From Pseudalgibacter alginicilyticus (GTDB lineage Bacteria; Bacteroidota; Bacteroidia; Flavobacteriales; Flavobacteriaceae), in the NCBI RefSeq assembly GCF_001310225.1, contig NZ_CP012898.1:186001-250000 (forward strand): a DNA stretch of 64,000 nucleotides, given 5' to 3'. Positions within the stretch are counted from its first letter, which is position 1; every line of letters begins with the position of its first letter. Shown piece after piece: positions 30,128-50,060 of the stretch. Both the position numbers and the translations under genes were made by a program. A model generated the notes under the pieces. The model did no database searches. It saw only the letters and a program-made list of their open reading frames with translations, and had not been told where the DNA came from.

Positions 30128-30148
30128 TTAAAAAAACACTTCTTAAAA

Positions 30149-32365: not shown

Positions 32366-32371
32366 TTTTTT

Positions 32372-33388
32372 ATGACTCATGAATTTAAAAATATAATTGA
32401 GGAAGCTACTAAAGCTAAAATACATGGATTAAAATCTGTTTTGGCGTCGGTCGTAGATTTGGATGGGTCATCTTACAGACGCCCTGGAGTTAGAATGCTC
32501 ATTCTTGAAAATGGAAACATGGTTGGAGCAGTAAGCGGTGGTTGTGTTGAAAAGGAAATTTTATTGCAATCTGAATCTGTTTTTAAAACTTCTAAACCTA
32601 AAATGATGACTTACGATGGTAGATATCGTTTGGGTTGTGAGGGTGTTTTATATATTCTGTTAGAAGAAGTCGCTTTTGATGAGGCTTTTGAGTCGTCTTT
32701 CTTTAAATGTTTGAATAAAAGGATATCGTTTGATATTATTTCTCGGTATGAAAAGAAAGCGGGATTTTATAAAGGTTTAGGGTCTGAAGTGAAAATTGGA
32801 GAAAATTATTTCTCTATTTCAAATAAAACCTCAAAAAATGCAGATAGCTTAATTTTTTGTCAAGTAATGCCCCCGTGTTTTAAATTAATAATCATTGGGG
32901 CGGAACATGATGCGGTGCAATTATGTAAATACGCATACTTAACGGGTTGGGAAGTGACTATCGTTGCAGGAGTTAAAGAGCATAAATCGATTAAAGAATT
33001 TCCAGGGGCTAATAAGTTTATGGCGTGCGCACCAGAGGATATAGATGTTACTAATGTTGATAATCAGACAGCTATTGTATTAATGACTCATAATTTTGCA
33101 TACGACTTACGATTTTTGGTGGCTATAAATAAAACACAGCCTATTTATATTGGATTATTAGGTCCAAGCAAAAGAAGAGATGATTTATTATCTCAGTTTA
33201 TAGAATATTGTCCAGACATATCAGATGAATTTTTAGAATCTGTTTATGGACCTGCTGGTCTTAATATAGGTTCAGAAACATCTCAGGAAATAGCGGTGTC
33301 TATTGTTTCAGAGATTTTATCGGTAGCTCGAAAAGAGGAGCCAATTTTTTTAAGTAAAAAAGCAGGTAGGATTCACTCAAAGGATTAA
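32372..33388 (+). CDS. XdhC/CoxI family molybdenum cofactor insertion protein
   Basis: A 338-residue protein with an N-terminal XdhC_CoxI domain (SSYRRPGVRML near residue 30 and SGGCVEKE near 56, with the conserved cysteine) and a C-terminal Rossmann domain (GAEHDAVQL near 178). Members bind the molybdenum cofactor and help sulfurate and insert it into xanthine oxidase-family enzymes. Its place six bases after the large subunit gene indicates it matures that enzyme. Confidence 0.9.
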   Translation: MTHEFKNIIEEATKAKIHGLKSVLASVVDLDGSSYRRPGVRMLILENGNMVGAVSGGCVEKEILLQSESVFKTSKPKMMTYDGRYRLGCEGVLYILLEEVAFDEAFESSFFKCLNKRISFDIISRYEKKAGFYKGLGSEVKIGENYFSISNKTSKNADSLIFCQVMPPCFKLIIIGAEHDAVQLCKYAYLTGWEVTIVAGVKEHKSIKEFPGANKFMACAPEDIDVTNVDNQTAIVLMTHNFAYDLRFLVAINKTQPIYIGLLGPSKRRDDLLSQFIEYCPDISDEFLESVYGPAGLNIGSETSQEIAVSIVSEILSVARKEEPIFLSKKAGRIHSKD

Positions 33389-33396
33389 AAAATGTT

Positions 33397-34014
33397 ATGT
33401 TTAACAAAACCCAAATGATAGCAACTGTAATTTTAGCGGCTGGTGCTTCAAAACGAATGGGAGTACCTAAGCAATTGTTAAAATGGGGTGATAGTACATT
33501 ATTAGAGCATGCTATAGTTCAGGCTTTACAATTGAATACTATAGAGGTTATAGTGGTATTGGGGGCAAATTTTAATCGTATAAAACCACAAATAGAACAT
33601 TATCCTATAACTATTTTAAATAATAAAAATTGGGAAGTAGGTTTAGGAAAATCTATTGCATTTGCTGTAGAATATCTAATAAAATCTAAACGTTCTATAG
33701 AAGGTGTTCTTATTACATTAGCTGACCAGCCATTTATAGAAAGCTCTTTTTTGAATCTTTTAATTGATGGTTTTTTGCCGAACAAAAGCCAAATTATAGC
33801 GACATTATATGAGGATGCAAAACAAGGAGTTCCTGTACTTTTTTGTAAAAAATACTTCAATGAATTATCTTATTTGAATGATGATATTGGTGCCAAAGTG
33901 CTTTTGGAAAAGCATGGAGTTGAGGTTAAAGTTTTCAAACCAAAAATAGAAAATATCGATATGGATTTTAAAATAGACTATAATTATTTCTACAATAAGA
34001 ATTTCAAGAAGTAG
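33397..34014 (+). CDS. Molybdenum cofactor nucleotidyltransferase (MocA/MobA-like)
   Basis: A 205-residue nucleotidyltransferase with the NTP-binding LAAGASKRMGVPKQLL segment near residues 13-28 and a LADQPFI metal-binding motif near 109. It fits the MocA branch, which adds CMP to molybdopterin to make the dinucleotide cofactor (MCD) used by xanthine oxidase-family enzymes. Position directly behind xdhC supports this. ATG 33397 was used; Met6 is an alternative start. Confidence 0.82.
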   Translation: MFNKTQMIATVILAAGASKRMGVPKQLLKWGDSTLLEHAIVQALQLNTIEVIVVLGANFNRIKPQIEHYPITILNNKNWEVGLGKSIAFAVEYLIKSKRSIEGVLITLADQPFIESSFLNLLIDGFLPNKSQIIATLYEDAKQGVPVLFCKKYFNELSYLNDDIGAKVLLEKHGVEVKVFKPKIENIDMDFKIDYNYFYNKNFKK

Positions 34015-34092
34015 TTTGTCTCTTTTTTAACTTAGTTAATTTAGATAATCATTTTGTTGGTTTTAACCTACTATTCTTTTTCACTTAAATAT

Positions 34093-36387
34093 ATGAGTAA
34101 ATCTCCCATTAATAAAGCAAATACACCAGAATCGTTTAATGATTTAAAAATAAAAACGCCACCAACAAGTACAGCAGGGTTTGAAGCGTTGAAAGTGGCT
34201 TTTGGACATGCAATAAAATACATGAAACTTACAGATACATTTAAAATTTCCTTAAAAATGAATCAAAAAGGAGGTTTTGATTGTCCGGGTTGTGCATGGC
34301 CAGATCCAGATGATGAACGTTCTACATTGGGAGAATATTGTGAAAATGGTTTAAAAGCTATTGCAGAAGAGGCGCAAAATAAATTAGTTACGGCGGATTT
34401 TTTCTTAAAACATTCAGTAGATGAATTAGCAGGATTATCTGATTTTGAAATAGGAAAATCAGGACGTTTGGCTGAACCTATGTTTTTGGAGGAAGAAGCC
34501 ACACATTATAAACCTATTTCTTGGAAAGATGCTTTTAATAAAGTTGGAAAACACTTAAATGCACTTTCTCATCCTGATGAAGCTGTATTTTATACTTCGG
34601 GAAGAACCACCAATGAAGCCGCTTTTTTATATCAATTGTTTGTTCGAGAGTTTGGAACGGCTAATTTACCTGATTGTTCCAATATGTGCCATGAAGCAAG
34701 TGGGGCTGCATTAAGTGAAACTTTAGGAGTGGGCAAAGGTTCTGTGGTTTTGGATGATTTGTATAAAGCAGATTTGGTTATGGTTATTGGGCAAAATCCC
34801 GCTACGAATCATCCTAGAATGTTATCAGCTTTAGAGAAATGTAAAAATAATGGTGGAAAAATTATAGCTATTAATCCGTTACCTGAAGCTGGGCTAATGA
34901 AGTTTACCAATCCGCAGAACCCCATAAAATTATTAACTGGCGGAACAAAACTTGCAGATGTATTTGTGCCCATCACTATTAATGGAGATGTAGCTTTTAC
35001 CAAAGCGGTACTTCTTAAGTTATTAGAAAAAGAAGAAGCAGAAGGTCATGTTTTTGATAAAGCCTTTATTGAGAAGCATACATACGGGTATCAGGCTTTT
35101 GTGGATAATTTAAAAATGTATGATTTTAATGAGTGTTTAAAATTATCTGGAATTTCAAAAAATATTTTCGATGAAGCTTTTAATTTAATCCTTAATAGTG
35201 ACAACATTATTATTTGTTGGGCTATGGGGTTAACGCAGCATGAAAATGCGGTTGATAATATTCGAGAATTAGTTAATTTATTATTATTGAAAGGGAGTAT
35301 AGGAAAAGAGGGGGCTGGTACCTGTCCAGTTCGTGGACATTCTAATGTCCAAGGCGATAGAACGGTTGGTATCTGGGAAGCTGCTCCTCAAGCTTTTTTA
35401 GATAAAATAGAAGCTAAGTATGGATTTAAACCTACATCAAAACACGGTTATTCTGTTATTGATGCTATAAAAGCTATGAATGAAGGCAAAGCAAAAGTGT
35501 TTTTTGGACTAGGAGGTAATTTTATTTCAGCGGTACCAGATACCAATTATTCAGCAAAAGGATTGGCAAATTGTAATTTAACAGTTCATGTAAGCACAAA
35601 ATTAAATCGCTCGCATTTAGTAACAGGAAAGGAAGCTTTGATTTTGCCTTGTTTAGGACGGTCAGAAAAAGATTTTCAAAAATCGGGACAGCAAATGCAA
35701 AGTGTAGAAAATTCTATGGGAGTTGTGTCTTCTACTAAAGGTGTTTTAGAGCCTTGTTCAAATTCGTTAAAGAGTGAGGTAGCTGTGGTTTGTAATATTG
35801 CCTATGCTACTTTAAAAGATAGAACAAAAATAAATTGGTTAAATTACGTAGATGATTATAGCTTGGTCCGAGAAGATATTCAGGAAGTGGTTGAAGGGTT
35901 TCAAGATTATAACCAACGATTAAATCAGCCTTCAGGATTTTATTTGCCAAATGGCGCCAGAAAAAGGAAGTTTAAAACTGCAACAGGAAAAGCTAATTTT
36001 TCTATAAATAAACTTCCTAATTGGAAACTTAAAGATTCTGAATTAATTATGATGACCATTCGTAGTCACGATCAATTCAATACGACAATTTATGGTTTGA
36101 ATGATCGTTACCGGGGCGTTTTTAATGAAAGACGTATTATTTTTATGAATAGAGAAGATATAAAAGAGCGTGGTTTGCAAGAACAGCAGGTTGTTAATTT
36201 AAAATCGGAATTTAATGGGGTTGTTAGAAAAGCCAATCACTTTAAAGTGGTAGGTTATGATATTCCCAAAAACTGTTGTGCTACGTATTTTCCAGAAACC
36301 AATGTGTTAGTATCAATTGATAGTTATGCACACACTGCTAAAACACCAGCTTCTAAAAGTATTATTATAACTGTTTCAGTTGAATAG
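34093..36387 (+). CDS. FdhF/YdeP family molybdopterin oxidoreductase
   Basis: A 764-residue DMSO reductase-superfamily protein of the YdeP type. It has GFDCPGCAWPDP near residue 55, the SNMCHEASG segment near 200, and a C-terminal molybdopterin dinucleotide-binding domain (IRSHDQFNTTIYG, starting near 655). E. coli YdeP is linked to acid resistance, but its reaction is not established; it resembles formate dehydrogenases without the classical catalytic Cys/Sec. I chose ATG 34093 (MSKSPIN) over an upstream TTG at 34054. It uses a different cofactor form from the upstream IorAB enzyme, so it may be an independent unit. Confidence 0.87.
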   Translation: MSKSPINKANTPESFNDLKIKTPPTSTAGFEALKVAFGHAIKYMKLTDTFKISLKMNQKGGFDCPGCAWPDPDDERSTLGEYCENGLKAIAEEAQNKLVTADFFLKHSVDELAGLSDFEIGKSGRLAEPMFLEEEATHYKPISWKDAFNKVGKHLNALSHPDEAVFYTSGRTTNEAAFLYQLFVREFGTANLPDCSNMCHEASGAALSETLGVGKGSVVLDDLYKADLVMVIGQNPATNHPRMLSALEKCKNNGGKIIAINPLPEAGLMKFTNPQNPIKLLTGGTKLADVFVPITINGDVAFTKAVLLKLLEKEEAEGHVFDKAFIEKHTYGYQAFVDNLKMYDFNECLKLSGISKNIFDEAFNLILNSDNIIICWAMGLTQHENAVDNIRELVNLLLLKGSIGKEGAGTCPVRGHSNVQGDRTVGIWEAAPQAFLDKIEAKYGFKPTSKHGYSVIDAIKAMNEGKAKVFFGLGGNFISAVPDTNYSAKGLANCNLTVHVSTKLNRSHLVTGKEALILPCLGRSEKDFQKSGQQMQSVENSMGVVSSTKGVLEPCSNSLKSEVAVVCNIAYATLKDRTKINWLNYVDDYSLVREDIQEVVEGFQDYNQRLNQPSGFYLPNGARKRKFKTATGKANFSINKLPNWKLKDSELIMMTIRSHDQFNTTIYGLNDRYRGVFNERRIIFMNREDIKERGLQEQQVVNLKSEFNGVVRKANHFKVVGYDIPKNCCATYFPETNVLVSIDSYAHTAKTPASKSIIITVSVE

Positions 36388-36557: not shown

Positions 36558-39077
36558 ATGAAAAAAATTGTTGTTGTGGGTAATGGTATGGTCGGTTATA
36601 AATTTTGTGAAAAATTTGTTTCTCAAACTAATTCAAAATCATTTAAGATTACAGTTTTTGGCGAAGAGCCTAGGCCTGCCTATGACCGTGTTCACTTAAG
36701 TGAGTATTTTGAAAACCAAGATGCTAAAGCTTTAGAAATGGCGTCAAGAGCTTGGTATGAAGAGCATGGAATTGAGTTGATTACTAATGAACGTATCACT
36801 CATATTCATCGGTCTTCAAAAAAAGTTTCAACGACTAAAGATTTGCATTATAAATACGATTACCTTGTTTTAGCAACAGGATCGTCTCCATTTGTGCCTA
36901 ATATTCCTGGTATTGAAAAAAAAGGAGTTTTTGTATATAGAACCATTGAAGACTTAGAAGCTACATTAGCGTATGCTAAAAAAATTATAGGAAAAAGTAA
37001 AAAAGCAGTTAAAGCTGCAGTGCTTGGTGGCGGACTTTTGGGGTTAGAAGCAGCTAAGGCGGTTATGGATATGGGGTTTGAACCTCACGTTGTAGAATTT
37101 GCGTCTAAATTGATGCCAAGGCAATTGGATACAAGAGCAAGTAAAGTGCTTCAAGAAAAAATAGAGTCTTTAGGTATTCATGTGCACTTGTCTAAAGCTA
37201 CCAATAAAATTCTTGGTAATGACGTTATTACGGGTATGGAATTTGGTGAGTATGATAAAATTGATGTAGAAATGTTGGTGGTTTCTGCTGGTATTAGGCC
37301 TCGTGATGAACTCGCAAAAACTTGTGATTTGAAAATGGGTGTTCGTGGAGGGATTATTGTTAATAATAGAATGCAGACTTCAGACCCTGAAATTTATGCT
37401 ATTGGTGAAGTAGCGCTATATAATAATATGATTTATGGTTTGGTGGCACCTGGCTATGATATGGCGGGTGTAGCTGTTGATCAAATTGTTGGTGATTCTA
37501 AAGAAAGGATGTCTAGTGCTATTGATATGTCAACGAAGCTAAAATTAATAGGTGTAGATGTGGCAAGTTATGGAGAGCCTTTCATGCCCGTAGAAAAAGG
37601 GTATTCTATTATTTACGAAAATAAAACCAAAAACTTGTATAAACGAATTAATATTAGTCATGATGGAAAAAAACTTTTGGGAGGCATTTTAGTTGGAGAT
37701 GCGTCAGATTATAATATGTTTCATCAAATATATCTAAACGGATTGCCAATTCCTGAAGATGCTGAGGAGTTGATTTTAGGAAGTAGGGGTGAAGGTGGTT
37801 CGTCTTTTGGAAGCGTGTTGGATATTCCAGATGCAGCTCAAGTGTGTTCTTGCGAAAGTGTAACCAAAGGGGATATCTGTTGTTTAATAAATGAAGGTGA
37901 TTGTGATAATTTAGGTGATGTTATAGCAAAAACTAAAGCAACTACAGGCTGTGGTGGTTGTAAGCCCATGGTTGTAGATTTAGTGAACGAAACCCTCAAA
38001 TCTCAAGGAAAGGAAGTTAAAGAAACCCTTTGTGAGCATTTTAGTTTTAACCGACAGGAATTATTTGATTTAATAAAAATTAATAAGGTTAAAGATTATG
38101 ATGAGGCTTTGAATTTATTTGGTGAAGGCGATGGTTGTGAGGTTTGTAAACCCGCCTTGGCGTCTATCTTTGCTACTATAACAATGGAAACACCTAATAA
38201 ACAAGTGGCTATTCAGGATACAAATGATCGGTTTTTAGCAAATATTCAACGTAACGGAACGTATTCGGTAGTGCCCAGAATTGCAGGAGGGGAAATTACG
38301 CCAGATAAATTAATAGTTATTGGTCAAGTAGCTAAGAAGTATGATTTGTACACTAAAGTAACTGGTGGTCAGCGTATCGATTTGTTTGGTGCACAACTGC
38401 ATGAGTTGCCATTAATATGGAAAGAATTGATTGATGCTGGTTTTGAAAGCGGACATGCCTACGGAAAATCATTACGTACTGTTAAAAGCTGTGTTGGTTC
38501 AACTTGGTGTCGTTATGGTATGCATGAAAGTGTCACTTTTGCAATCGAAATTGAAGATCGTTATAAAGGGTTGCGCTCACCTCATAAATTAAAAGGAGGT
38601 GTTTCAGGTTGTATTCGTGAATGTGCTGAGGCTAGAGGAAAGGATTTTGGGTTGATAGCTGTTGATGGCGGATGGAATTTATATGTCTGTGGAAATGGTG
38701 GAGCAACACCTAAGCATGCCGTGCTTTTTGCCGAACAATTGGATGACGAAACAGTTGTTAAATATTTAGATAGATTTTTAATGTTCTATATACGTACAGC
38801 AGGGCCACTGGTAAGAACAGCACCGTGGTTGGATAAACTTGAGGGAGGTATAGAGTATTTAAAACAAGTGGTTATTGAGGATTCTTTAGGGATTGCTGAA
38901 GAATTAGAAGAAGAAATGAAAGGACTTATTAATAAGTATGAATGTGAATGGAAACAAGCTATTGAAAACCCCGAAATGATGAAGCGCTTTAAGCATTTTG
39001 TTAATTCCGATGATACGGACGATAACTTGGTATTTGTACCGATGCGTGATCAAAAAATGCCAAAAGCTTGGAATTAA
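36558..39077 (+). CDS. nirB: Assimilatory NAD(P)H nitrite reductase, large subunit
   Basis: NirB reduces nitrite to ammonium with six electrons from NAD(P)H, with NirD as partner, in the cytoplasm. The 839-residue protein has an FAD/NAD-binding module (1-310), a BFD-type [2Fe-2S] domain (Cys430, 432, 465, 468), a second short Cys-containing BFD-like stretch (to about 540), a ferredoxin-like half-domain (570-635) and the siroheme/[4Fe-4S] domain with CxxxxxC (645, 651) and CxxxC (685, 689). All key residues are present. First gene of the nir cluster. Confidence 0.96.
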   Translation: MKKIVVVGNGMVGYKFCEKFVSQTNSKSFKITVFGEEPRPAYDRVHLSEYFENQDAKALEMASRAWYEEHGIELITNERITHIHRSSKKVSTTKDLHYKYDYLVLATGSSPFVPNIPGIEKKGVFVYRTIEDLEATLAYAKKIIGKSKKAVKAAVLGGGLLGLEAAKAVMDMGFEPHVVEFASKLMPRQLDTRASKVLQEKIESLGIHVHLSKATNKILGNDVITGMEFGEYDKIDVEMLVVSAGIRPRDELAKTCDLKMGVRGGIIVNNRMQTSDPEIYAIGEVALYNNMIYGLVAPGYDMAGVAVDQIVGDSKERMSSAIDMSTKLKLIGVDVASYGEPFMPVEKGYSIIYENKTKNLYKRINISHDGKKLLGGILVGDASDYNMFHQIYLNGLPIPEDAEELILGSRGEGGSSFGSVLDIPDAAQVCSCESVTKGDICCLINEGDCDNLGDVIAKTKATTGCGGCKPMVVDLVNETLKSQGKEVKETLCEHFSFNRQELFDLIKINKVKDYDEALNLFGEGDGCEVCKPALASIFATITMETPNKQVAIQDTNDRFLANIQRNGTYSVVPRIAGGEITPDKLIVIGQVAKKYDLYTKVTGGQRIDLFGAQLHELPLIWKELIDAGFESGHAYGKSLRTVKSCVGSTWCRYGMHESVTFAIEIEDRYKGLRSPHKLKGGVSGCIRECAEARGKDFGLIAVDGGWNLYVCGNGGATPKHAVLFAEQLDDETVVKYLDRFLMFYIRTAGPLVRTAPWLDKLEGGIEYLKQVVIEDSLGIAEELEEEMKGLINKYECEWKQAIENPEMMKRFKHFVNSDDTDDNLVFVPMRDQKMPKAWN

Positions 39078-39176: not shown

Positions 39177-39554
39177 ATGCAAAATATAATAGAACAATAT
39201 AAATCGGTTTCAGAAGTCAATGTTACAACATGGTTCGAGGTTGGGGAAGTTAGTGATTTTCCTAAAAATTCAGGTGCTTGTATAAAATATAAAACCAAGC
39301 AGATTGCTGTTTATAATTTTGCGAGAAAAAATTCATGGTATGCTTGTCAGAATTTATGCCCTCATAAAATGGAGATGGTTTTATCATTAGGAATGATTGG
39401 GGATAAGGATGGAGTAGCAAAAGTAGCTTGTCCAATGCATAAAAAGAATTTTTCGTTGAAGGATGGTTCAAATTTAGCAGGAGATGATTTAAAAATAGCA
39501 GTTTATCCAGTTAAAATTAAAGATGGAAATGTGTATATTGGCTTTGAAGATTAA
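39177..39554 (+). CDS. nirD: Nitrite reductase small subunit with Rieske-type motif
   Basis: The 125-residue NirD partner of NirB has a Rieske-like fold. Unlike the enterobacterial NirD, which lacks the cluster ligands, this one keeps both Rieske motifs: CPH near residue 60 and CPMH near residue 84. It may therefore hold a [2Fe-2S] cluster and take part in electron transfer. It is the second gene of the nir operon, 99 bases after nirB and 12 before the DUF4202 gene. Confidence 0.9.
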   Translation: MQNIIEQYKSVSEVNVTTWFEVGEVSDFPKNSGACIKYKTKQIAVYNFARKNSWYACQNLCPHKMEMVLSLGMIGDKDGVAKVACPMHKKNFSLKDGSNLAGDDLKIAVYPVKIKDGNVYIGFED

Positions 39555-39566
39555 CATTTAAAATCA

Positions 39567-40157
39567 ATGACCATGAAGCCAACAAAATTTGAAAGTGCTA
39601 TTATATTAATAGATCAAAAAAATTCAGAAGACATCAATACCTATAGTGTATACGGAATTGATTACTCTAAAGAATTATTATACTCACATAGGATGTCTCA
39701 AAAACTATTACAGTTTGAGCCAGAAGCTTCGGAAGCATTGCAAATTGCAGCACGTGCTCAACATATTTGCAGATGGAAAATAGCTAGGAATGAATATCCT
39801 ATGGATAGAGTGGGCTATTTAAAATGGCGAGAAACCTTAAAGAAAATGCATGCCGATATTACTGCCGAAATTTTGGAACAAGTGGGTTATGATTCTGAAT
39901 TTATTGAACGTGTATCCTTTTTAATTAATAAAAAATTGATTAAAAAAGATGAAGGCAGCCAAACTATTGAAGATGTTATTTGTTTGGTTTTTTTAGAATT
40001 TTATTTTGAAGACTTTGCTGCAAAGCATTCAGAAGAAAAAATAATTGATATTCTTCAAAAAACATGGAAAAAAATGTCTGAAAAAGGACATGCTGAAGCG
40101 TTAAAATTAAGTTATTCAGATACAGATTTAGAATTGATAAAAAAAGCATTAGCTTAA
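39567..40157 (+). CDS. DUF4202 protein of nitrate-assimilation clusters
   Basis: A 196-residue, all-helical-looking cytoplasmic protein with QIAARAQHICRWKIARNEYPM near 64-84 and a conserved ADITAEILEQVGY segment. It matches the DUF4202 family as I know it. The family recurs beside nitrite and nitrate reductases; its molecular role is unknown. The His-Asp spread is reminiscent of HD-domain hydrolases, but I cannot show the fold. It lies 12 bases after nirD and 13 before the sensor kinase, so all four are cotranscribed. Confidence 0.8.
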   Translation: MTMKPTKFESAIILIDQKNSEDINTYSVYGIDYSKELLYSHRMSQKLLQFEPEASEALQIAARAQHICRWKIARNEYPMDRVGYLKWRETLKKMHADITAEILEQVGYDSEFIERVSFLINKKLIKKDEGSQTIEDVICLVFLEFYFEDFAAKHSEEKIIDILQKTWKKMSEKGHAEALKLSYSDTDLELIKKALA

Positions 40158-40170
40158 AAGTTTTTCATAC

Positions 40171-42009
40171 ATGAGTAGTAAAGGCAATTCATTAGATCAA
40201 CGTACTTTTAAAAAATTAAGAAAGTTGTATATCATTGCCTTAAGTGCTATTGCACTAACTGTAATTACAAGTCAAATATTTGTTAGAAAGTATCTCAACA
40301 ATCAGCAAAGTGACTCTTCTGTTATAAATGTAGCAGGAAGGCAGCGGATGTTAAGTCAAAAATTAACTAAAGAAATTCTGTTGTTTTCATTGGCTACTTC
40401 AAAAGAAAATAAATTAGAACTTAAAGATAAATTAAAAGAAACTTTGTTTTTGTGGGGTGTATCGCATCGTGCGCTTCAAAACGGGAATGATAGTTTGGGG
40501 TTACCAGGTAATAATAGTATGGTTATTACTGACATGTTCAGTAAATTAAACCCTGTTTTTAATACGATTAATGAGTCTACAAAAAAAATAATTGTAGCAA
40601 TTGAAAAAAATCCATCTATTTCTTTAAATGCTTTGCGAGATGATTTTGAAAAAGTGATTCAAAGTGAGGATGATTTTTTAAGGATAATGGATCAGATTGT
40701 GAATCAATATGATTTGGAGGCTGATGCCAAAGTGAGTTGGCTAAGAAAGTTGGAAATGTTTTTAATGTTTTTAACTTTATTTATTTTATTAGCAGAATTA
40801 TTATTTGTGTTTTGGCCTACAGCTGTGGCAGTTAAAAATAGTTTGGCTGAATTATTAGCAGCTGAAAAAAGAGCTAAAAAAATGGCTTTTGATGCGGATG
40901 TTCTGAGTGCAGCAAAAGAAAAATCTGTTAAAGAATTAAGAGCTTTAAGTCATGCTATGGATGAGACTTTGCTGTTTGCGCGTATTCATGCTAATGGCAC
41001 TATTGTTCATATGGGGAATAAGTTTTCAAGATTATTTAAGTTTAGTAAATTTAATTTAAGCTTAAATTTTGCAGAGGTGCTTTCTTCCAATGAAAAAGAA
41101 CAATTAGTTATCGAGAATTTAATAACTAATTATAAAAATACAGGGTGGCAAGGCGAAGTAAAAGCACTAACGAAAGATGGAAAAGATGTTTGGTTAGAAA
41201 TGGCTATTATTCCATTCAATCCTTCAGATGATAAATCTGAATTGTTAATTATTGCATCAGAAATAACCGATAGAAAAGAAGCGCAGTTGGAAATTGAGCG
41301 TCTCATTAAAGAAAGTTTTGAGGAAAAAATGAGTCAGCAAAAAATTATTTCCAGTAAAATTATTGAAAATCAAGAAAATGAGCAAAATCGTATAGCTAAA
41401 GATGTGCATGATGGTATTGGTCAAATGTTAACGGGATTAAAATACAATTTAGAAAGTATTGATATTAAAGATATTGATAAAACAGCTGTTAAAATTGAGC
41501 ATTTAAAAGAGTTAACGTCAAATATTATAAAAGGTGTGCGTACCGCAACGTTTAATTTGACTCCTCCTGAGCTTTCAGATCATGGTATTGTTCCGGCGTT
41601 AGCAAAATTGACTAAGGAATTGGCCAAGCTTACAGGGAAAAACATTATACTTTTTAATAAGAATGATTTTAATAAAAGGTTAGACTCACTTATTGAAATT
41701 AATATTTATAGAATTGTTCAAGAAGCTATTAATAACGCAATAAAATATGCAGAATCTGACCATATTATTGTGTCAATTTCCAGTAGTAGAAATATACTTA
41801 GTATTGTAATTGATGATAATGGAAAAGGGTTTGATCCAAGTAAAATTACAAACGTTAAGAATGGTGATGGTGGTATGGGAATGACTTTTATGAATGAACG
41901 CATAAAATATATTGATGGACGATTTTTTTTAAATTCAGAGATTAATAAAGGTACAAGAGTTACTTTAAATGTTCCAATTGCCGAAGATAAAGTAAGTAGT
42001 GTTACTTAA
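40171..42009 (+). CDS. NarX-like nitrate/nitrite sensor histidine kinase
   Basis: The 612-residue kinase has a first membrane helix (about 20-38) and a periplasmic PilJ/NarX-type sensor domain. Its start contains INVAGRQRMLSQKLTKEI (52-69), equivalent to the nitrate-binding P-box of NarX. A second membrane helix (195-217), a PAS domain (about 255-375), a HisKA_3 dimerisation domain with phospho-acceptor His413 in KDVHDGIGQM, and an HATPase domain with DDNGKGF and GGMGM follow. It probably senses nitrate or nitrite outside the membrane and phosphorylates the NarL-like protein encoded 35 bases downstream. Confidence 0.88.
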   Translation: MSSKGNSLDQRTFKKLRKLYIIALSAIALTVITSQIFVRKYLNNQQSDSSVINVAGRQRMLSQKLTKEILLFSLATSKENKLELKDKLKETLFLWGVSHRALQNGNDSLGLPGNNSMVITDMFSKLNPVFNTINESTKKIIVAIEKNPSISLNALRDDFEKVIQSEDDFLRIMDQIVNQYDLEADAKVSWLRKLEMFLMFLTLFILLAELLFVFWPTAVAVKNSLAELLAAEKRAKKMAFDADVLSAAKEKSVKELRALSHAMDETLLFARIHANGTIVHMGNKFSRLFKFSKFNLSLNFAEVLSSNEKEQLVIENLITNYKNTGWQGEVKALTKDGKDVWLEMAIIPFNPSDDKSELLIIASEITDRKEAQLEIERLIKESFEEKMSQQKIISSKIIENQENEQNRIAKDVHDGIGQMLTGLKYNLESIDIKDIDKTAVKIEHLKELTSNIIKGVRTATFNLTPPELSDHGIVPALAKLTKELAKLTGKNIILFNKNDFNKRLDSLIEINIYRIVQEAINNAIKYAESDHIIVSISSSRNILSIVIDDNGKGFDPSKITNVKNGDGGMGMTFMNERIKYIDGRFFLNSEINKGTRVTLNVPIAEDKVSSVT

Positions 42010-42044: not shown

Positions 42045-42713
42045 ATGGATATTATAAAAGTAGTTTTAGCTGATGATCATGTTTTGGTAAGAGATGGTAT
42101 TAAAGCACTTTTAGAGGATCAGTCTGGTATTCAGGTAATTGATGAGGCTTCCAATGGAAAAGAGGCTTTAGAAGTTATTCGTAACCGAAAACCAGATTTA
42201 TTAATAGTTGATATTCGAATGCCTGAAATGAATGGTATTGAGGTTGTAGCTGAAATTACTAAAAACAATCTGGGAATAAAAGCACTTGTTCTTTCTATGC
42301 ATGATTCAGAAGAATATGTAGTTAAAGCTATTGAAGCTGGCGCTGATGGATATTTGTTAAAAGGGGCGAGTAAAGATGAATTTTTAAAAGCTATTAATTC
42401 GATAGCTGCTGGCGGTAAGTATTTTACTGGCGATGTTTCAGCTATTATTATGAATCATTTTGTTTCAAATGGAAATTCATCTTCTGGGCATAATGTCACA
42501 AAAACAAAAAAAGAAGACCCGTTTAACCTTACTAAACGTGAAAAGCAAATTCTTAAATTGGTTCTACAATTAAAAAACAATAAGGATATTGCTGAGGAGC
42601 TTGATATTAGTAGAAGAACGGCGGAAGTGCACCGTTTTAATTTGATGAAAAAATTAGAGGTTAAAAATTTAATGGAGCTCACAAATAAATCTAAGGAGTT
42701 TCAATTAGTGTAA
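42045..42713 (+). CDS. NarL/FixJ-type response regulator
   Basis: A 222-residue transcription regulator with a receiver domain (phospho-Asp56 in LLIVDIRMP, acidic pair at 10-11, Lys of the KGAS switch near 106) and a C-terminal LuxR-type helix-turn-helix (LTKREKQILKLVLQL, SRRTAEVHRFNLMKKL). It is the cognate partner of the adjacent sensor kinase. I infer that it binds the TAAGTA palindromes at the nirB and narK promoters, but nothing in the sequence proves that. Confidence 0.92.
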   Translation: MDIIKVVLADDHVLVRDGIKALLEDQSGIQVIDEASNGKEALEVIRNRKPDLLIVDIRMPEMNGIEVVAEITKNNLGIKALVLSMHDSEEYVVKAIEAGADGYLLKGASKDEFLKAINSIAAGGKYFTGDVSAIIMNHFVSNGNSSSGHNVTKTKKEDPFNLTKREKQILKLVLQLKNNKDIAEELDISRRTAEVHRFNLMKKLEVKNLMELTNKSKEFQLV

Positions 42714-42967: not shown

Positions 42968-44398
42968 ATGAAAACAGTAACTTCAGAAAAGGCAACAAAA
43001 TTAAATTTACTTGATTTAAAAAGTGTTTCAATCCGTACATTTTGGATAACGTCAATATCATTTTTCATGTGTTTCTTTGCATGGTTTGGTATTGTGCCGT
43101 TTATGCCAGATGTGGTTAAAGATTTAGGTTTAACACCAGATCAAAAATGGAATTCTATTATTTTGGCAGTATCAGGTACTGTTTTTGCACGTTTATTAAT
43201 CGGTAAGTTATGTGATAAATATGGTCCTAGGCTGTGTTATACATGGCTATTAATTTTAGGTGCTGTTCCTGTTGTATTATGTGGATTAGTTCAAACTCCT
43301 CTTCAATTCTTAATTTGTAGATTGTTTATTGGGTTTATTGGTGCATCTTTTGTGATTACTCAAGTACATACATCTTTAATGTTTGCATCTAACATTGTTG
43401 GAACGGCTAATGCAACTTCGGCAGGTTGGGGTAATTTAGGAGGTGGAGCTAACCGGCTGGGTATGCCGTTAATTGCAGCAGCGGTTATTGGTTTTGGTGT
43501 TGCAGAAGGAGATGCTTGGCGATATTCTATGGTGATTGCTGGTGTTATTTGTTTCGTTATGGGAGTTATTTATTACTTTTTTACTCAGGATACACCTGAA
43601 GGAAATTATAAAGAATTGAGAGAAGCTGGAGAAGTAGTTGGTAAAAAGAAAGATGCTGTATCTTTTGTGTCAGTTCTTAATGATTATAGAATTTGGATTT
43701 TATTTTTAGTTTATGCGGCAAGTTTTGGAATTGAATTGACAGTGTATGGTACTATGGATGATTATCTACAGAATACTTTTCAATTGGAAAGGCTTACGGC
43801 AGGTAACATTGTTTTGTCTTTTGCTTTAATGAATATTTTTGCGAGGACTTTAGGTGGTTTTTTTGGTGATATGTTTGGGAAGTTGAAAGGATTAAGAGGC
43901 CGTGTGTTGTTCTTGTCATTTATATTAACTTTACAAGGCATTATGCTTGTGAGTTTCTCTGTTGCAACAAATTTGTATTTAGGTGTTGTTTTATTGATTT
44001 TGTTTAGTTTGAGTGTACAAATGGCAGAAGGAGCAACTTTTTCAGTAGTGCCATTTATTAATAAAAAAGCCATTGGGTCGGTTTCAGGAATTGTTGGAGC
44101 AGGGGGTAATGTAGGGGCTTTTTTAGCTGCATTTTTACTGAAATCTAAATCAGCTTTAGCTGAAGAAACGGCTATTGTAGCTAACCAAGGTTTAGGGGAA
44201 GGTGTTATAAAAGCAGCACAATCTGCAGCAGCATCTATGGCGGTTTCTAATGGTTATTTTGCAATTGGACTGGTTGTTGTTTTTGTTGGTGTTATAGCTT
44301 TGGCAATTAAGTTTTCTACAGAAGATGAAGAGTTGGTTCGTGTAAAAATAAATAAAGAGATAGAAAGTGAGTTACAGCCTATACAGGTGAAAAGTTAA
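42968..44398 (+). CDS. narK: Nitrate/nitrite transporter NarK family (MFS)
   Basis: A 476-residue 12-helix major facilitator transporter. The family signature AGWGNLGGGANRLG (about 152-165) binds the nitrate anion, and a conserved arginine pair of the Nar/Nrt family can be placed in helices 2 and 8. Its location between the regulator pair and nitrate reductase supports nitrate uptake or nitrite exchange. It has its own promoter with the TAAGTA palindrome array. Confidence 0.93.
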   Translation: MKTVTSEKATKLNLLDLKSVSIRTFWITSISFFMCFFAWFGIVPFMPDVVKDLGLTPDQKWNSIILAVSGTVFARLLIGKLCDKYGPRLCYTWLLILGAVPVVLCGLVQTPLQFLICRLFIGFIGASFVITQVHTSLMFASNIVGTANATSAGWGNLGGGANRLGMPLIAAAVIGFGVAEGDAWRYSMVIAGVICFVMGVIYYFFTQDTPEGNYKELREAGEVVGKKKDAVSFVSVLNDYRIWILFLVYAASFGIELTVYGTMDDYLQNTFQLERLTAGNIVLSFALMNIFARTLGGFFGDMFGKLKGLRGRVLFLSFILTLQGIMLVSFSVATNLYLGVVLLILFSLSVQMAEGATFSVVPFINKKAIGSVSGIVGAGGNVGAFLAAFLLKSKSALAEETAIVANQGLGEGVIKAAQSAAASMAVSNGYFAIGLVVVFVGVIALAIKFSTEDEELVRVKINKEIESELQPIQVKS

Positions 44399-44523: not shown

Positions 44524-47500
44524 ATGTTGAAAAACGAAGTGAAATCAACCTGTTCTTATTGTGGTGTTGGTTGTGGAATTATTATAAAAAAGGACACTAA
44601 CGACAATGTGCTTGTTGAAGGAGATAAGGAACACCCTGTAAATAAAGGGATGCTCTGCTCAAAGGGAATGAATTTACACTACGTAGTAAATGATAGGTCT
44701 GATAGAATACTATATCCAGAAATGCGTTGGAGCCGATCGCATCCTCGTGAGCGCGTTAGCTGGAACGATGCTTTAGAAAGAGCTGCCAGTGTCTTTAAAG
44801 CTATTATAAAAAAACATGGACCAGATAGTGTTGGATTTTATGTATCAGGACAAAGTTTAACAGAAGAGTATTATATAGCCAACAAGCTTACCAAAGGGTT
44901 TTTAGGAACTAATAACATCGATACAAATTCTAGGTTGTGTATGAGTTCAGCTGTGGTTGGTTATAAAAAAACATTTGGAGAAGATAGTGTGCCTATTTCG
45001 TATGAAGATATAGAACTAGCCGATTGTTTTCTTATTGCGGGAGCTAATCCGGCATGGTGTCATCCTATTTTGTTCAGAAGGTTAGAAAAGCACAAAGAGG
45101 ATAACCCCGAAGTTAAAATTATAGTAGTAGATCCTCGAAAAACAGATTCTGCTAATTTTGCCGATTTACATTTGCAGCTTATTCCAGGAACCGATGTTGT
45201 TTTGTATAATGCTATTGGTAGACGTTTGTTTGAACGTGGATTGATAGATGATGACTTCATTAAAAATCATACAGAAGGATTTAAAGATTATAAAGAACAA
45301 ATATTTTCAACATCTGTAAAACAAGCATCAAAAATATGTGGTGTTCCTGAAAAGGATATTCGAAAAGCAGCCGATATTATTGGGCTTTCAAAAGGCTTTA
45401 TAAGCATGTGGGCTATGGGGTTGAATCAAAGCGCCGTTGGGACGGATAAAAACTTTGCGCTTTTAAATTTATCGCTTATTACAGGACAGGTAGGTAAACC
45501 AGGTTCGGGGCCATTTTCCTTAACTGGTCAACCTAATGCTATGGGGGGGCGAGAAGTAGGCGGTATGGCTAATTTATTAGCAGTTCATAAAGATTTATTT
45601 AATCCGGAGCACCGACGGGAAGTTGCCCAATTTTGGGGTGTGGATAAAATATCTGATAAGGCAGGGTATACGGCCACAGAAATGTTTGATGCACTTGAAA
45701 AAGGAAAATTGAAAGCAGTTTGGATTGTTTGTACAAATCCATTAGTAAGCATGCCTAACACGCATCAAATTGAAAGAGCCATGAAAAACGCTAAGTTTAT
45801 TGTTGTTCAAGATATATCTCATAAATCTGATACAGCAGCTTATGCCGATTTACTATTGCCGGCAGCAGGGTGGTTAGAAAAAGAAGGAACCATGACCAAT
45901 TCTGAGCGTAGAATTTCTTATTTACCACAAGAAGTAAGACCTCCTGGAGAAGCTAAAGCAGATGTGGAAATATTTTGTGAGTTTGCCAAAAAAATGGGTT
46001 TCAGAGGATTTAATTATAACAGTTCAGAAGAAATATATAATGAGTATTGTTCCATGACTAAAGGAACAAATATTGATGTGTCATATTTAAATTATGATAG
46101 ATTAAAAAACGAGGGCACATTTCAGTGGCCAGTGCCAGATTACAGGCATTCTGGTACAAAACGCCTTTTTGAAGATAAAAAATTTTATACGCCATCGCAA
46201 AAAGCTATTTTTAATATTCCGAAAAGTATTGAAAACACATCACCTAAAACGAATGACAATTACCCATTAATCCTAACAACAGGACGTGTTAGGGATCAAT
46301 GGCATACCATGACTAGAACAGGAAAAGTGTCTCGATTGAAAACGCATTACCCAACCCCTGTTTTGGAAATAAATCCGATTGATGCCCATATAAACAAGAT
46401 AAAAAATGGTGACATCACAGAAATAAAAAGTCAAAATGGTGTAGTTAGAGTTCGTGCCAGTATTACAGATAATATTAAAGAAAGTGTGGTTTTTCTGCCG
46501 ATGCATTGGGGTAAAAAATTGCAAAGTGATTTGAATCGTGCTAATAATTTAACCAACACGATAGTAGATCCACAATCTAAAGAGCCTGATTTTAAATATA
46601 CAGCGGTTTCAGTTAAAAAATATAAAAAACCAGTTGAAAAAATTATAGTTGTAGGTGCTGGTGCAGCGGCTTTTAGGTTTATTCAAAATTACCGTGATTA
46701 TAATGAAAAAGATGAAATTCATGTATTTTCAAAAGAACCAAATCTTTTTTATAATCGTGTTTTGTTACCAGAATATGTCACTGAAGAGTTAAGTTGGGAA
46801 CAACTTCTCAAGATAAAAAAATTAGAATTAGATAAACTAAATATAAAATTATACCCAGAAAGCTATATAATTAAAATAGATAAGGAATCTAAAGTTGTAA
46901 CAGACAGTAATACTAATCAGCATACGTTTGATAAACTAATTTTGGCTACAGGTAGTAGGGCTTTTGTACCAAAGGATGTTCAAATTGATCTTCCGGGACG
47001 ATTTACTATGCGAGATAAAAGTGATGCAGATCGTTTTAAAGCATATTTAGATGCTACCAATTTACCTCCAGAACAACAACATGTTGTTATAGTGGGTGGT
47101 GGACTGCTTGGTTTAGAATTGGCAGCGGCTATGAAGCATAAAAATGTAAAAATTACCATTATACAACGGGCCTCTCGACTTATGGAGCGTCAATTAGATG
47201 CGGTGTCGAGTAAATTGTTGGCGTTGGACGTTCAAGAAAGAGGGATTCAAATTTATTTTGATAACGAAGTGAGTACGGTATTTGATGATGAAGACACAAG
47301 GGAATTAAATATTACATTAAAAAGTGGCCGGTTTATTACGGCTCACGCAATAGTATATGCCATTGGGACGGTTCCAAATATTGAAATAGCCAGAGAAAAT
47401 GGTATTCGCTGTGGTAGGGGAGTTAAAGTAAATCAGCATTTACAATCATCGCATCCAGATATTTTCGCTATGGGTGAAATTGCTGAATATAATGATCAGT

Positions 47501-48045
47501 TATTTGGAATAACATCAGCGGCAGAAGAGCAGGCTAATGTGTTGGCAAATTATATTGCAGGAGATATCAGTTGTGCATATAATGGTTCTGTTTTAATGAA
47601 TATATTGAAGTTTAACGACCTTAATTTGTGTAGTATTGGAGATATTGTAGTGCCTGAAAACGATGATAGCTATCAGGAAGTGATTTTTACAGATATTTCT
47701 AAACGCTACTATAAAAAATGCATAGTTAAGGATGATTTGTTGGTTGGTGCTGTTTTAATGGGGGATAAGAATGAATTTGCTGAATTTAAAAATATGATTG
47801 AAAGCAAAATTGAAATGTCCGACAAGCGAAATACTTTGTTGCGTGGTGCTTCCAATGATAAGCCAGTTATGGGTAAGCTGGTTTGTTCTTGTAGTCAAGT
47901 AGGAGCAGGTAATATTGAAGAGGTTGTAAAGGCTGGTTGTTCTGATTTTACAGAACTTTGCAATAAAACTGGAGCTGGATTAGGCTGCGGAAGCTGTAAG
48001 ACTGAAGTAAGGGAAATACTTAATAACACAAAAGTATTAGTGTAA
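44524..48045 (+). CDS. Assimilatory nitrate reductase fused to NirB-like FAD module and BFD [2Fe-2S] domain
   Basis: The 1173-residue protein joins three activities. Residues 1-690 are a NasA/NarB-type molybdenum reductase with a [4Fe-4S] cluster (Cys10, 13, 17, 45) and Mo-ligand Cys139 in NSRLCMSSAV. Residues 705-1080 are an FAD/NAD(P)-binding reductase related to the NirB N-terminal half (GAGAAAF near 712, GGGLLG near 857). Residues 1120-1173 are a BFD-type [2Fe-2S] domain (Cys1121, 1123, 1155, 1158). It should reduce nitrate to nitrite with NAD(P)H in one chain, replacing separate NasB/NasC subunits. The next gene begins 3 bases after its stop. Confidence 0.9.
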   Translation: MLKNEVKSTCSYCGVGCGIIIKKDTNDNVLVEGDKEHPVNKGMLCSKGMNLHYVVNDRSDRILYPEMRWSRSHPRERVSWNDALERAASVFKAIIKKHGPDSVGFYVSGQSLTEEYYIANKLTKGFLGTNNIDTNSRLCMSSAVVGYKKTFGEDSVPISYEDIELADCFLIAGANPAWCHPILFRRLEKHKEDNPEVKIIVVDPRKTDSANFADLHLQLIPGTDVVLYNAIGRRLFERGLIDDDFIKNHTEGFKDYKEQIFSTSVKQASKICGVPEKDIRKAADIIGLSKGFISMWAMGLNQSAVGTDKNFALLNLSLITGQVGKPGSGPFSLTGQPNAMGGREVGGMANLLAVHKDLFNPEHRREVAQFWGVDKISDKAGYTATEMFDALEKGKLKAVWIVCTNPLVSMPNTHQIERAMKNAKFIVVQDISHKSDTAAYADLLLPAAGWLEKEGTMTNSERRISYLPQEVRPPGEAKADVEIFCEFAKKMGFRGFNYNSSEEIYNEYCSMTKGTNIDVSYLNYDRLKNEGTFQWPVPDYRHSGTKRLFEDKKFYTPSQKAIFNIPKSIENTSPKTNDNYPLILTTGRVRDQWHTMTRTGKVSRLKTHYPTPVLEINPIDAHINKIKNGDITEIKSQNGVVRVRASITDNIKESVVFLPMHWGKKLQSDLNRANNLTNTIVDPQSKEPDFKYTAVSVKKYKKPVEKIIVVGAGAAAFRFIQNYRDYNEKDEIHVFSKEPNLFYNRVLLPEYVTEELSWEQLLKIKKLELDKLNIKLYPESYIIKIDKESKVVTDSNTNQHTFDKLILATGSRAFVPKDVQIDLPGRFTMRDKSDADRFKAYLDATNLPPEQQHVVIVGGGLLGLELAAAMKHKNVKITIIQRASRLMERQLDAVSSKLLALDVQERGIQIYFDNEVSTVFDDEDTRELNITLKSGRFITAHAIVYAIGTVPNIEIARENGIRCGRGVKVNQHLQSSHPDIFAMGEIAEYNDQLFGITSAAEEQANVLANYIAGDISCAYNGSVLMNILKFNDLNLCSIGDIVVPENDDSYQEVIFTDISKRYYKKCIVKDDLLVGAVLMGDKNEFAEFKNMIESKIEMSDKRNTLLRGASNDKPVMGKLVCSCSQVGAGNIEEVVKAGCSDFTELCNKTGAGLGCGSCKTEVREILNNTKVLV

Positions 48046-48048
48046 CTT

Positions 48049-49479
48049 ATGAAAAAAAATCTTAATAGATTAATAGTAAAAGGGGGTGTTTTGTCACCTA
48101 GTGAATTAAAATATATTTGTGAAACTGCAGAAGCATGGGGTTTAAAAACGATTTCTTTTGGGTCTCGGCAGGATGTGGTATTGTCTAAAAAGATTGAAGA
48201 AGAAGATATTAGTAAGTTTGATAAACTTCAAATTATAAAAGCTGAAGATGTAGGTACGGGCAATATTGTTTCGTCGTATGTGTCTGCAGATATTATGCCA
48301 AATACGCCATGGTTAACAAGTGATAGGTATTTGTATATTTTGGAGCAATTTAGGTTTCAACCTAAGTTAAAAGTAAATATAACAGATCCTAAACAACGCT
48401 TAGTGCCTTTGTTTACAGGGCATTTGAATTTTATTGCATCAGAACATGAAGATTATTGGTATTTATATATCAGATTACCAGAATGGAGGAACGCTGTGAT
48501 GTATCCTGCACTTATTTATAGTTGGGATTTAGATAAGATTGTATTAGCTATTGAAACTATTTTGAAAGAAGAGCCTGAGACAGTAGAAACTATTTTTGAT
48601 TTAGTTAGTGATGCTGTTGATACTAACAATCGGACTGTTGATAAGCCTTTGGATGTGCCTTTTTATCCATTTCCATATTATGAAGGGATGAATAGAATAG
48701 GAGATAAATATTGGCTAGGTTTGTATTGGAGAAATAATAAATATGATGTAGCATTTTTAAAGGCTATGTGTGAGCTTTGTGCTGAAAATAAAATTGGAAA
48801 AATATCAATAACACCATGGAAATCCTTTATTGTAAAAGGAATTCCTGTTAAAGCGAAGTTGCAGTGGGAAAAATTCTTAGGTAAATTTGGTATAAATGTA
48901 CGTCATTCTATGTTAGAGCTTAATTGGCATTTGCCTGTAGGGAATAAGGATGCATTAAGCCTAAAAAAGTATTTAGTGTTAAATTTTGATAAAAATGATA
49001 TTAGTACATATGGATTAACTTTTGCTATTACAGAGTCTTTGGTGTCAGAGCATTATTTTACGTCAATTGTTATAGAAAAGAATAATCAAATTGAAGGTTT
49101 AGAAGATATTGAGCTTAGAGAAACTTATAATTTGTTATATGCTAAAAATTTTGATCCTAATTCTAGAGATTATGTTATGCATGTGCAAGATATTGATAAA
49201 GTAGAGTTGTCGGGAGTTCTTATGGAATTAAGTAAACTGTATTTTGAACAGTTAGGTCAGGAAAGAGAAGAAGAAAAAGAGTCTGAAATGTCAAAAGAAA
49301 AGGCTGAAGAAGTTGTTTTTCAGTGTCAAGATTGTTTAACAATATACAATGAGGAGTATGGGGATGTTACTCAACATATTTTACCTAATACACCTTTTGA
49401 TTCTCTGCCAAAGAATTATGAATGTTCACTTTGTGAAGCACCAAAAGATAATTTTGAAAAAAAGATTTTAGTAAGATAA
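48049..49479 (+). CDS. Degenerate nitrite/sulfite reductase-like protein with C-terminal rubredoxin
   Basis: The first half resembles the sulfite/nitrite reductase architecture: a ferredoxin-like half-domain (about 8-65, GGVLSPSELKYICETAEAWG), a siroheme-domain-like stretch (about 70-200), and a second copy (ferredoxin-like about 230-262, TPWKSFIVKGI). The siroheme/[4Fe-4S] cysteine motifs are missing; GNIVSSYVSAD stands where a ligand cysteine would be expected. The last 55 residues are a rubredoxin (Cys426, 429, 459, 462; NTPFDSLP motif). It follows the nitrate reductase with a 3-base gap, so it is probably an electron carrier or accessory subunit of nitrate reduction. Confidence 0.75.
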   Translation: MKKNLNRLIVKGGVLSPSELKYICETAEAWGLKTISFGSRQDVVLSKKIEEEDISKFDKLQIIKAEDVGTGNIVSSYVSADIMPNTPWLTSDRYLYILEQFRFQPKLKVNITDPKQRLVPLFTGHLNFIASEHEDYWYLYIRLPEWRNAVMYPALIYSWDLDKIVLAIETILKEEPETVETIFDLVSDAVDTNNRTVDKPLDVPFYPFPYYEGMNRIGDKYWLGLYWRNNKYDVAFLKAMCELCAENKIGKISITPWKSFIVKGIPVKAKLQWEKFLGKFGINVRHSMLELNWHLPVGNKDALSLKKYLVLNFDKNDISTYGLTFAITESLVSEHYFTSIVIEKNNQIEGLEDIELRETYNLLYAKNFDPNSRDYVMHVQDIDKVELSGVLMELSKLYFEQLGQEREEEKESEMSKEKAEEVVFQCQDCLTIYNEEYGDVTQHILPNTPFDSLPKNYECSLCEAPKDNFEKKILVR

Positions 49480-49544: not shown

Positions 49545-50060
49545 CTACCAAGTGATAGTACCATTCATAGTTAATATTTTATCTGTTTTTGTATTTACAA
49601 CCGTGGTATTATCAAATATTACTTTTTTTTCACTTTGTCTTACTTCAAAATTTTCGCCACATTCAGTAAATGTTCCAACCTCAGGAGAGGAACAAGCAAA
49701 TTTATATTCCGTGCCATTTATGTTTATTGACATGGATACGGTTTTTGTTACAGAAGCATTGCTTGAAAATTGAGCAGTTACTATAATAAATGTATTTGCA
49801 GGATCTGTAGGAATTATTTCTCCATTATCTGTATTTATATTTTTATGAAGAAGTGTTACAGATTGTGAAGTTCCTGTTTGTACTGCTCCTTCAATGATAT
49901 TTCCAACTTCTAAAGTGCCTCCAAGCTCTGAAGCCTCTTCACCAGATAATGTAATAATGCCTGATGCATTATTTGTTGATTCATCAGAATTATTGTCACT
50001 ACTACAACTTATTAGTGCTACTAAAACAATTGTAAAAAAATAATTTTTTAAGTTTTTCAT
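49545..50060 (-). CDS. Hypothetical lipoprotein
   Basis: A 171-residue secreted protein with a lipobox (VALISCSS, Cys at about 19) and a Ser/Asn-rich tether. The rest is a Thr/Val-rich beta structure with a single TFTEC segment. I do not recognise a family. It converges on the nitrate operon and shares a terminator. Confidence 0.75.
   Translation of the reverse strand: MKNLKNYFFTIVLVALISCSSDNNSDESTNNASGIITLSGEEASELGGTLEVGNIIEGAVQTGTSQSVTLLHKNINTDNGEIIPTDPANTFIIVTAQFSSNASVTKTVSMSININGTEYKFACSSPEVGTFTECGENFEVRQSEKKVIFDNTTVVNTKTDKILTMNGTITW

Follow-up and report, generated by a model that had tools for sequence, protein, structure and literature searches.

The window analysed here comprises 64,000 nucleotides of the Pseudalgibacter alginicilyticus genome (contig NZ_CP012898.1, positions 186,001 to 250,000) and contains a cluster of nitrate genes (Table 1). 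The final plus-strand gene ahead of a convergent gene (49545-50060, minus strand) encodes a pseudo-SIR/rubredoxin protein, for which we use the working name SIR-Rd. The open reading frame of nasA ends at 48045, so that three bases separate its stop codon from the SIR-Rd start, as the initial annotation of this DNA had it. No Rfam elements were found in the SIR-Rd region, and scans for promoters and terminators around the gene gave results no better than chance.

The DUF4202 gene lies between nirD and the nitrate-sensing kinase gene in most clusters of Flavobacteriaceae and Algoriphagus. Upstream, at 29666-36387, the window contains a second group of genes of the molybdoenzyme type. Their products, as read from the sequence, are a 2Fe-2S protein, XdhC-like and MobA-like proteins, an FdhF/YdeP-like oxidoreductase, and a large subunit of the aldehyde-oxidase/xanthine-dehydrogenase type with a possible export signal.

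Relatives of the FAD/NAD(P)H module in NasA are the rubredoxin reductases and the N-terminal part of NirB. Its top PDB relative is 1xhc, and others include 3klj and the rubredoxin reductase 2v3a/2v3b; 1xhc and 3klj are NADH:rubredoxin oxidoreductases. The Pfam domain Rubredoxin_C scores 75 bits in this module versus 35 bits in NirB. However, the flavin module of NirB also resembles rubredoxin reductases, and thus the likeness is not specific to NasA.

Table 1. Features of the nitrate cluster and of SIR-Rd (window coordinates)
Feature	Coordinates	Strand	Description	Evidence
NirB	36558..39077	+	NADH-nitrite reductase large subunit, NIR_SIR siroheme domain; co-occurs with SIR-Rd	
NirD	39177..39554	+	Rieske-type small subunit of nitrite reductase	Pfam
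DUF4202 protein	39567..40157	+	member of the same conserved cluster	Pfam
PilJ-sensor histidine kinase	40171..42009	+	nitrate/nitrite-sensing type	Pfam, PMC8199190
LuxR-type response regulator	42045..42713	+	partner of the PilJ-sensor kinase	Pfam
NarK-type transporter	42968..44398	+	nitrate/nitrite transporter (MFS)	ORF, locus comparison
NasA	44524..48045	+	fused assimilatory nitrate reductase: Mo-bisMGD/[4Fe-4S] part, FAD/NAD module, BFD [2Fe-2S] domain	
NasA FAD/NAD(P)H module	46639..47817	+	residues 706-1098	Pyr_redox_2 and Rubredoxin_C
NasA BFD-like [2Fe-2S] domain	47878..48024	+	residues 1119-1167	Pfam
SIR-Rd gene	48049..49479	+	476 aa, ATG start	
First NIR/SIR ferredoxin-like half-domain	48049..48273	+	residues ~1-75	Pfam, profile alignment
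Degenerate first siroheme-binding half	48274..48663	+	residues ~76-205	alignment, fold match
Second ferredoxin-like half-domain	48664..48897	+	residues ~206-283	Pfam, alignment, model
Conserved Cys241-x-x-Cys244	48769..48780	+	located on a second-half-domain helix; not a siroheme-cluster motif	alignment, model
Degenerate second siroheme/[4Fe-4S] half	48898..49260	+	residues ~284-404	alignment, model
Rubredoxin domain	49318..49458	+	residues 424-470; Cys426, 429, 459, 462	Pfam, alignment

Domain structure and fold of SIR-Rd

Pfam recognises NIR_SIR_ferr in two stretches of SIR-Rd (E 3.9e-10) and a Rubredoxin domain at residues 424-469 (E 7.4e-13). NIR_SIR (PF01077) is absent from SIR-Rd and from all 32 relatives scanned with Pfam; NIR_SIR_ferr was found in each of these relatives and Rubredoxin in 30. 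The protein gave no Pfam match to [2Fe-2S] ferredoxins, to Rieske proteins (NirD is encoded by a separate gene) or to NarJ/TorD (PF02613). The positions of its seven cysteines (24, 241, 244, 426, 429, 459 and 462) make a CxxxxxC/CxxxC pair impossible. These data confirm the architecture read earlier: two half-domains, no siroheme/[4Fe-4S] motif, and a four-cysteine rubredoxin at the C-terminus. An assignment to CobG (precorrin-3B synthase) was considered and rejected, as NCBIfam TIGR02435 scored 13 bits against a cut-off of 235 bits.

The AlphaFold2 model based on a 32-member alignment has pLDDT 83 and pTM 0.67; a model restricted to the dead domain (residues 1-404), built from 59 sequences, reaches 87 and 0.71. 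In a Foldseek search of the PDB, the core model was matched best by NirA of M. tuberculosis (E 2.8e-16; TM 0.56, relative to query length) together with entries for SiRHP of E. coli. All 31 matches with E <= 1e-3 are siroheme nitrite/sulfite reductases, and the alignments of ~450-500 columns thus cover both halves of the core. The large rmsd (~12 A) means that the placement of the two halves relative to each other is uncertain in the model, and residues 286-291, close to the site of the former cluster loop, have pLDDT <50. The family profile could be aligned with the first half of the Flavobacteriaceae sulfite reductases but not with the second, and therefore the fold comparison was used instead. 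A PDB sequence search with the same profile produced only rubredoxin-containing chains among the 60 matches listed.

At the level of the modelled fold, the ancestor of SIR-Rd is a siroheme nitrite/sulfite reductase with two halves. The proposal that it has a NIR/SIR fold has survived the structural comparison, in which no unrelated fold appeared at E <= 1e-3. It shares with NirA and CysI/SiRHP the order of the two ferredoxin-like half-domains and a whole-length fold match, but differs from them by the absence of the NIR_SIR 4Fe-4S domain and of the CxxxxxC and CxxxC motifs, and by the attached rubredoxin. In a manual secondary-structure alignment, the segments ELNWHLPV and GLTFAIT appear to stand where these two motifs would be. 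Given this loss, and judged by its sequence, SIR-Rd is no longer able to hold the [4Fe-4S]-siroheme unit as the known enzymes do.

The C-terminal domain has two CxxC pairs and the rubredoxin fold. It has the 29-residue spacing of PF00301 rubredoxins, and its model shows ~40% identity to solved rubredoxins with an rmsd of 0.8-1.4 A. It differs from ordinary rubredoxins in being tethered to a dead SIR fold and in the replacement of the usual glycine after each CxxC (L430, E463). The candidate ligands of a rubredoxin-type Cys4 centre are all present, with Fe or Zn as the putative metal. The loop between the CxxC pairs consists of 28-29 residues in 129 of the 132 family members described below. 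Two distant members have strongly shortened loops of 8 and 15 residues, and these could form a structural metal site instead.

Conserved and lost residues in the SIR-Rd family

A GTDB-wide scan confirmed at least 573 relatives, and the closest 80 among the matches listed were kept as loci. The 162 loci with SIR-Rd copies correspond to 132 distinct proteins. Within the aligned subsets, Bacteroidota relatives share 31-79% identity with the query, and their conservation spans the full length; by sequence comparison, this similarity is not due to chance. In most of the distant loci that could be scored, the rubredoxin stays at 37-51% identity, with the dead domain down to ~34%. Conservation rates were also considered as a guide to the partner protein, but they did not separate NasA from NirB.

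The rubredoxin cysteines Cys426, 429, 459 and 462 are present in 131 of the 132 members. No conserved cysteine column was found among the 132 in the region of the former cluster ligands. The only conserved cysteines outside the rubredoxin are Cys244, present in all members, and Cys241, present in all but one. As candidates for relocated ligands of the siroheme cluster they are too few for a [4Fe-4S] site, and thus the objection that ligands might be conserved at other positions, foreseen in the initial annotation, does not hold. The Cys241-x-x-Cys244 motif, which was missed there together with the invariant R40 and with K/R108, could be a putative redox or metal site. Several loci (L036-L041 and L043) show a single cysteine or two within the stretch that aligns with residues 283-335, for example in GLCFAI and EDxC. 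Such cysteines of distant members, insufficient for a cluster, are possibly vestiges of the ancestral ligands.

Siroheme and substrate are held in E. coli SiRHP by the four basic active-site residues R83, R153, K215 and K217. Their equivalents were assigned using a profile alignment that spans the first half only. By this alignment, the R83-like R40 is retained in all 132 members, and the K217-like position 108 is K or R in 131. On the other hand, the R153-like position 71 is occupied by E, Q or N, mostly E, and the K215-like position 106 is variable, with K in only 80 members; the full set of four is absent from the 132-member family. The invariant pair R40-Q41 of the first half-domain aligns with the TTRQD motif of siroheme enzymes.

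Other conserved positions are spread along the protein. W88, L107, N110, Q116, G124, N127, S131 and W137 are invariant in the degenerate first siroheme-binding half; the second half-domain contains the stretches PYYEG, YWLGLYWR and TPWKSFIVKGI; and further near-invariant polar residues are N72, N110, E212, R228, K258, R285, H286 and N292. His294 is replaced by Q in seven members. The presence of about 50 near-invariant residues shows that the scaffold is under selection. The description of a NIR/SIR fold with its cofactors lost and a rubredoxin acquired is supported by the fold match, the family-wide absence of the ligand motifs and the near-invariant rubredoxin cysteines, while the word "retired" suits the siroheme site but not the rest of the scaffold.

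Gene order and co-occurrence

All loci retrieved together with their flanks show one gene order: the Mo part of nasA, the FAD/BFD part, SIR-Rd. The two NasA parts form a single ORF in the window and in the genomes checked. With two exceptions, SIR-Rd immediately follows the fused nasA in every locus examined that has upstream sequence. The search for the same architecture beside nasA in other Bacteroidetes, suggested in the initial annotation, was thus positive. The distance from the nasA stop to the SIR-Rd start varies from -11 to 606 bases, the commonest values being -4 and -1. The frequent overlaps by 1 or 4 bases suggest translational coupling.

In the first exceptional genome, G245, an ORF encoding a 269-aa nucleotidyltransferase-like protein (locus L171, 9627-10436, plus strand) is inserted between nasA and SIR-Rd; this is the sole insertion seen. 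In the other, G183, the SIR-Rd ORF (locus L172, contig C4, 63-1556, plus strand) is situated at a contig start, and the short upstream sequence is not nasA. This orphan copy ends before the rubredoxin, and neither NasA nor NirB was found above threshold in the genome. It looks like a remnant after pathway loss.

Co-occurrence was analysed in 395 evenly drawn genomes of Bacteroidota, with NirB counted above the curated cut-off and matches spanning just a rubredoxin-like stretch left out of the SIR-Rd count. SIR-Rd was found in 29 genomes (28 and G183), fused NasA in 33, and NirB in 28, the latter being exactly the 28 genomes with both fused NasA and SIR-Rd. In many loci nirBD is near SIR-Rd, in others it is more distant. 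The remaining five genomes with fused NasA (G067, G108, G211, G235 and G274) have neither SIR-Rd nor NirB above the cut-off, and three of them contain a SIR-type match a few kb from nasA. However, these five belong to another class of the phylum, and thus presence and absence are confounded with phylogeny. In loci L180-L184, with fused NasA and no SIR-Rd, NirA-like ORFs and possible flavodoxin/flavin-reductase ORFs with the N-terminal motif PFxxEQ were read from the sequence beside nasA.

Among plasmids, the SIR-Rd family was observed in Bacteroidota only, fused NasA and SIR-Rd occurring on the same four records. SIR-Rd is likely restricted to Bacteroidota, the sample outside the phylum being limited. 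In an actinobacterial cluster, NasA and an FAD/BFD protein are encoded by separate neighbouring genes followed by nirB (assigned by reading the sequence), and the stretch read contains no SIR-Rd.

Possible function of SIR-Rd

The role of docking protein and electron donor for NasA, suggested in the initial annotation, is the best supported of the functions considered, although the case for it is built on where the gene lies, what it co-occurs with and which proteins the NasA flavin module resembles. In this form, with SIR-Rd as a cofactor-free NIR/SIR descendant that would dock onto the NADH-dependent nitrate reductase, perhaps also the nitrite reductase, and carry electrons as its subunit, the proposal seems to us evenly poised between right and wrong. 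Most likely SIR-Rd would act as a second subunit of this enzyme. The dead reductase domain would dock onto the FAD/BFD module of NasA, in parallel with NirB, in which an FAD module of this type is joined to a siroheme domain. The tethered rubredoxin would accept electrons from FAD and hand them onward, the first acceptor being the [4Fe-4S]/Mo centre of NasA. Electrons might also be shared with NirBD, in which case nitrite would not accumulate. A stronger version, in which SIR-Rd is an obligatory docking and rubredoxin relay that links the NADH-nitrate reductase, perhaps with NirBD, into one assembly and is kept throughout the NirB-using Bacteroidota, is a credible but more tentative proposal, on balance slightly doubtful.

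Analogous systems are known. In Paracoccus (nasABGHC), the small redox protein NasG is likewise encoded together with NADH-linked nitrate and nitrite reductases; it transfers electrons from NasB to NasC and has been proposed to shuttle them from flavin to reductase sites for both enzymes (PMC4724949, PMC6618116). NasG is described as a ferredoxin, with no SIR scaffold, whereas SIR-Rd combines a rubredoxin with such a scaffold; SIR-Rd would be an analogue, not a homologue. In flavorubredoxins and FDPF fusions (FDP-Rd-NROR), a tethered rubredoxin is also served by a flavin domain of the NADH:Rd reductase type, and such reductase-rubredoxin cassettes supply the attached enzyme with electrons (PMC9364112). 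However, that enzyme is an active diiron protein, and the domain attached in SIR-Rd appears inactive. In a Trichomonas fusion protein, the potentials are ~-56 mV for the rubredoxin and near -235 mV for FAD (PMC9364112), and that of nitrate reduction is +0.42 V (PMC12300631). By analogy with the Trichomonas values, a rubredoxin following FAD is energetically fit for nitrate reduction.

The docking and carrier role is favoured by the gene order with its frequent overlaps, by the 28/28 co-occurrence, by the loss of the rubredoxin in the orphan copy of G183, by the rubredoxin-reductase relatives of the NasA flavin module and by the higher identity of the rubredoxin than of the dead domain in most of the distant loci scored. 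The main difficulty is that by domain content the fused NasA already forms a complete NADH-FAD-[2Fe-2S]-[4Fe-4S]-Mo chain, and thus has no evident need of a further carrier. The five fused NasA proteins mentioned above and the split actinobacterial NasA and FAD/BFD pair manage without SIR-Rd. Adjacency in an operon is no proof of physical contact either, and the confounding with phylogeny applies here too. The co-occurrence implicates NirB, left aside in the initial annotation, as much as NasA.

The main rival is a role in maturation: SIR-Rd would be a dedicated factor that binds apo-NasA and helps to insert Mo-bisMGD or the Fe-S/flavin cofactors, with the rubredoxin as a redox switch or metal site. 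It would then replace NarJ/TorD chaperones, a different family with which it might share the role in nitrate reductase maturation. The complete genome has no match to NarJ/TorD (PF02613; the E. coli and B. subtilis controls were positive), and SIR-Rd is tightly coupled to nasA. A further point in favour is that NarJ matures NasC in Paracoccus (PMC6618116). The occurrence of five fused NasA genomes without SIR-Rd speaks against maturation, as does the fact that SIR-Rd tracks NirB, an enzyme without Mo cofactor, and as does Paracoccus, where a nas cluster is seen to do without a chaperone gene of its own (PMC6618116). Overall we consider this role unlikely. Still less likely is that SIR-Rd is a bridge or metabolon subunit joining NasA to NirBD, with its main contact to NirB, so that nitrite is channelled and electrons are shared. 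It would explain why the distribution of SIR-Rd equals that of NirB and why the five fused NasA genomes without NirB have no SIR-Rd, but the gene lies beside nasA, not nirBD, which is more distant in several genomes. Moreover, a rubredoxin of typical potential would donate poorly to a siroheme/[4Fe-4S] centre. An example of such a potential is about -56 mV (PMC9364112). A NasB-NasG-NasC complex has been proposed for Paracoccus (PMC6618116), which favours the bridge.

Without the cluster, the old siroheme pocket might still accommodate a tetrapyrrole, or else an anion such as nitrate, nitrite or NO. R40 and K/R108, whose aligned counterparts in siroheme enzymes are basic, and the near-invariant polar residues listed above are in line with this. 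However, two of the four basic equivalents and the cluster motifs have been lost, and His294 is replaceable by Q. Judging by these residues, retained binding is unlikely, and we regard a sensor, a buffer or a new catalyst built on it as quite improbable. The orphan copy, which has lost its rubredoxin and whose genome shows no NasA or NirB above threshold, is what would be expected of a decaying relic without function. For the family as a whole this is already contradicted by the conservation pattern: the long-range conservation with its near-invariant residues, the overlapping genes and the near-perfect linkage make it scarcely conceivable.

The SIR-Rd cluster underlies nitrate assimilation in the sampled NirB-using Bacteroidota. 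If SIR-Rd indeed acts in docking and relay, a redox enzyme has been recycled as a docking subunit, and the wiring of the Bacteroidota NADH-nitrate reductase becomes better defined; if it acts in maturation, it takes the place of the absent NarJ/TorD chaperone.

In the open-licence literature, we found no description of the architecture, fold or function of SIR-Rd, nor of a cofactor-free member of the NIR/SIR family acting as a docking or relay subunit; descriptions elsewhere are possible. Rubredoxin is not mentioned in the eLife moeA study of Flavobacterium IR1. The initial annotation knew of no described protein of this design; a label, however, already exists. The legend to Fig. 3 of a review of nitrate-sensing kinases (PMC8199190) lists "rub, rubredoxin" among genes of unclear involvement in nitrate metabolism, the rubredoxin alone being noted in this legend, with no mention of the SIR fold. 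JH651379.1, a genome in that figure, is the Galbibacter contig of our locus L145, and "rub" of the Bacteroidetes nitrate clusters is very probably the SIR-Rd family. One of the most constant members of the cluster is therefore on record merely as a rubredoxin. The same label, "rubredoxin", is the NCBI annotation of the Spirosoma copy WP_232563077.1 from the plasmid collection, which is located 3' of nasA.
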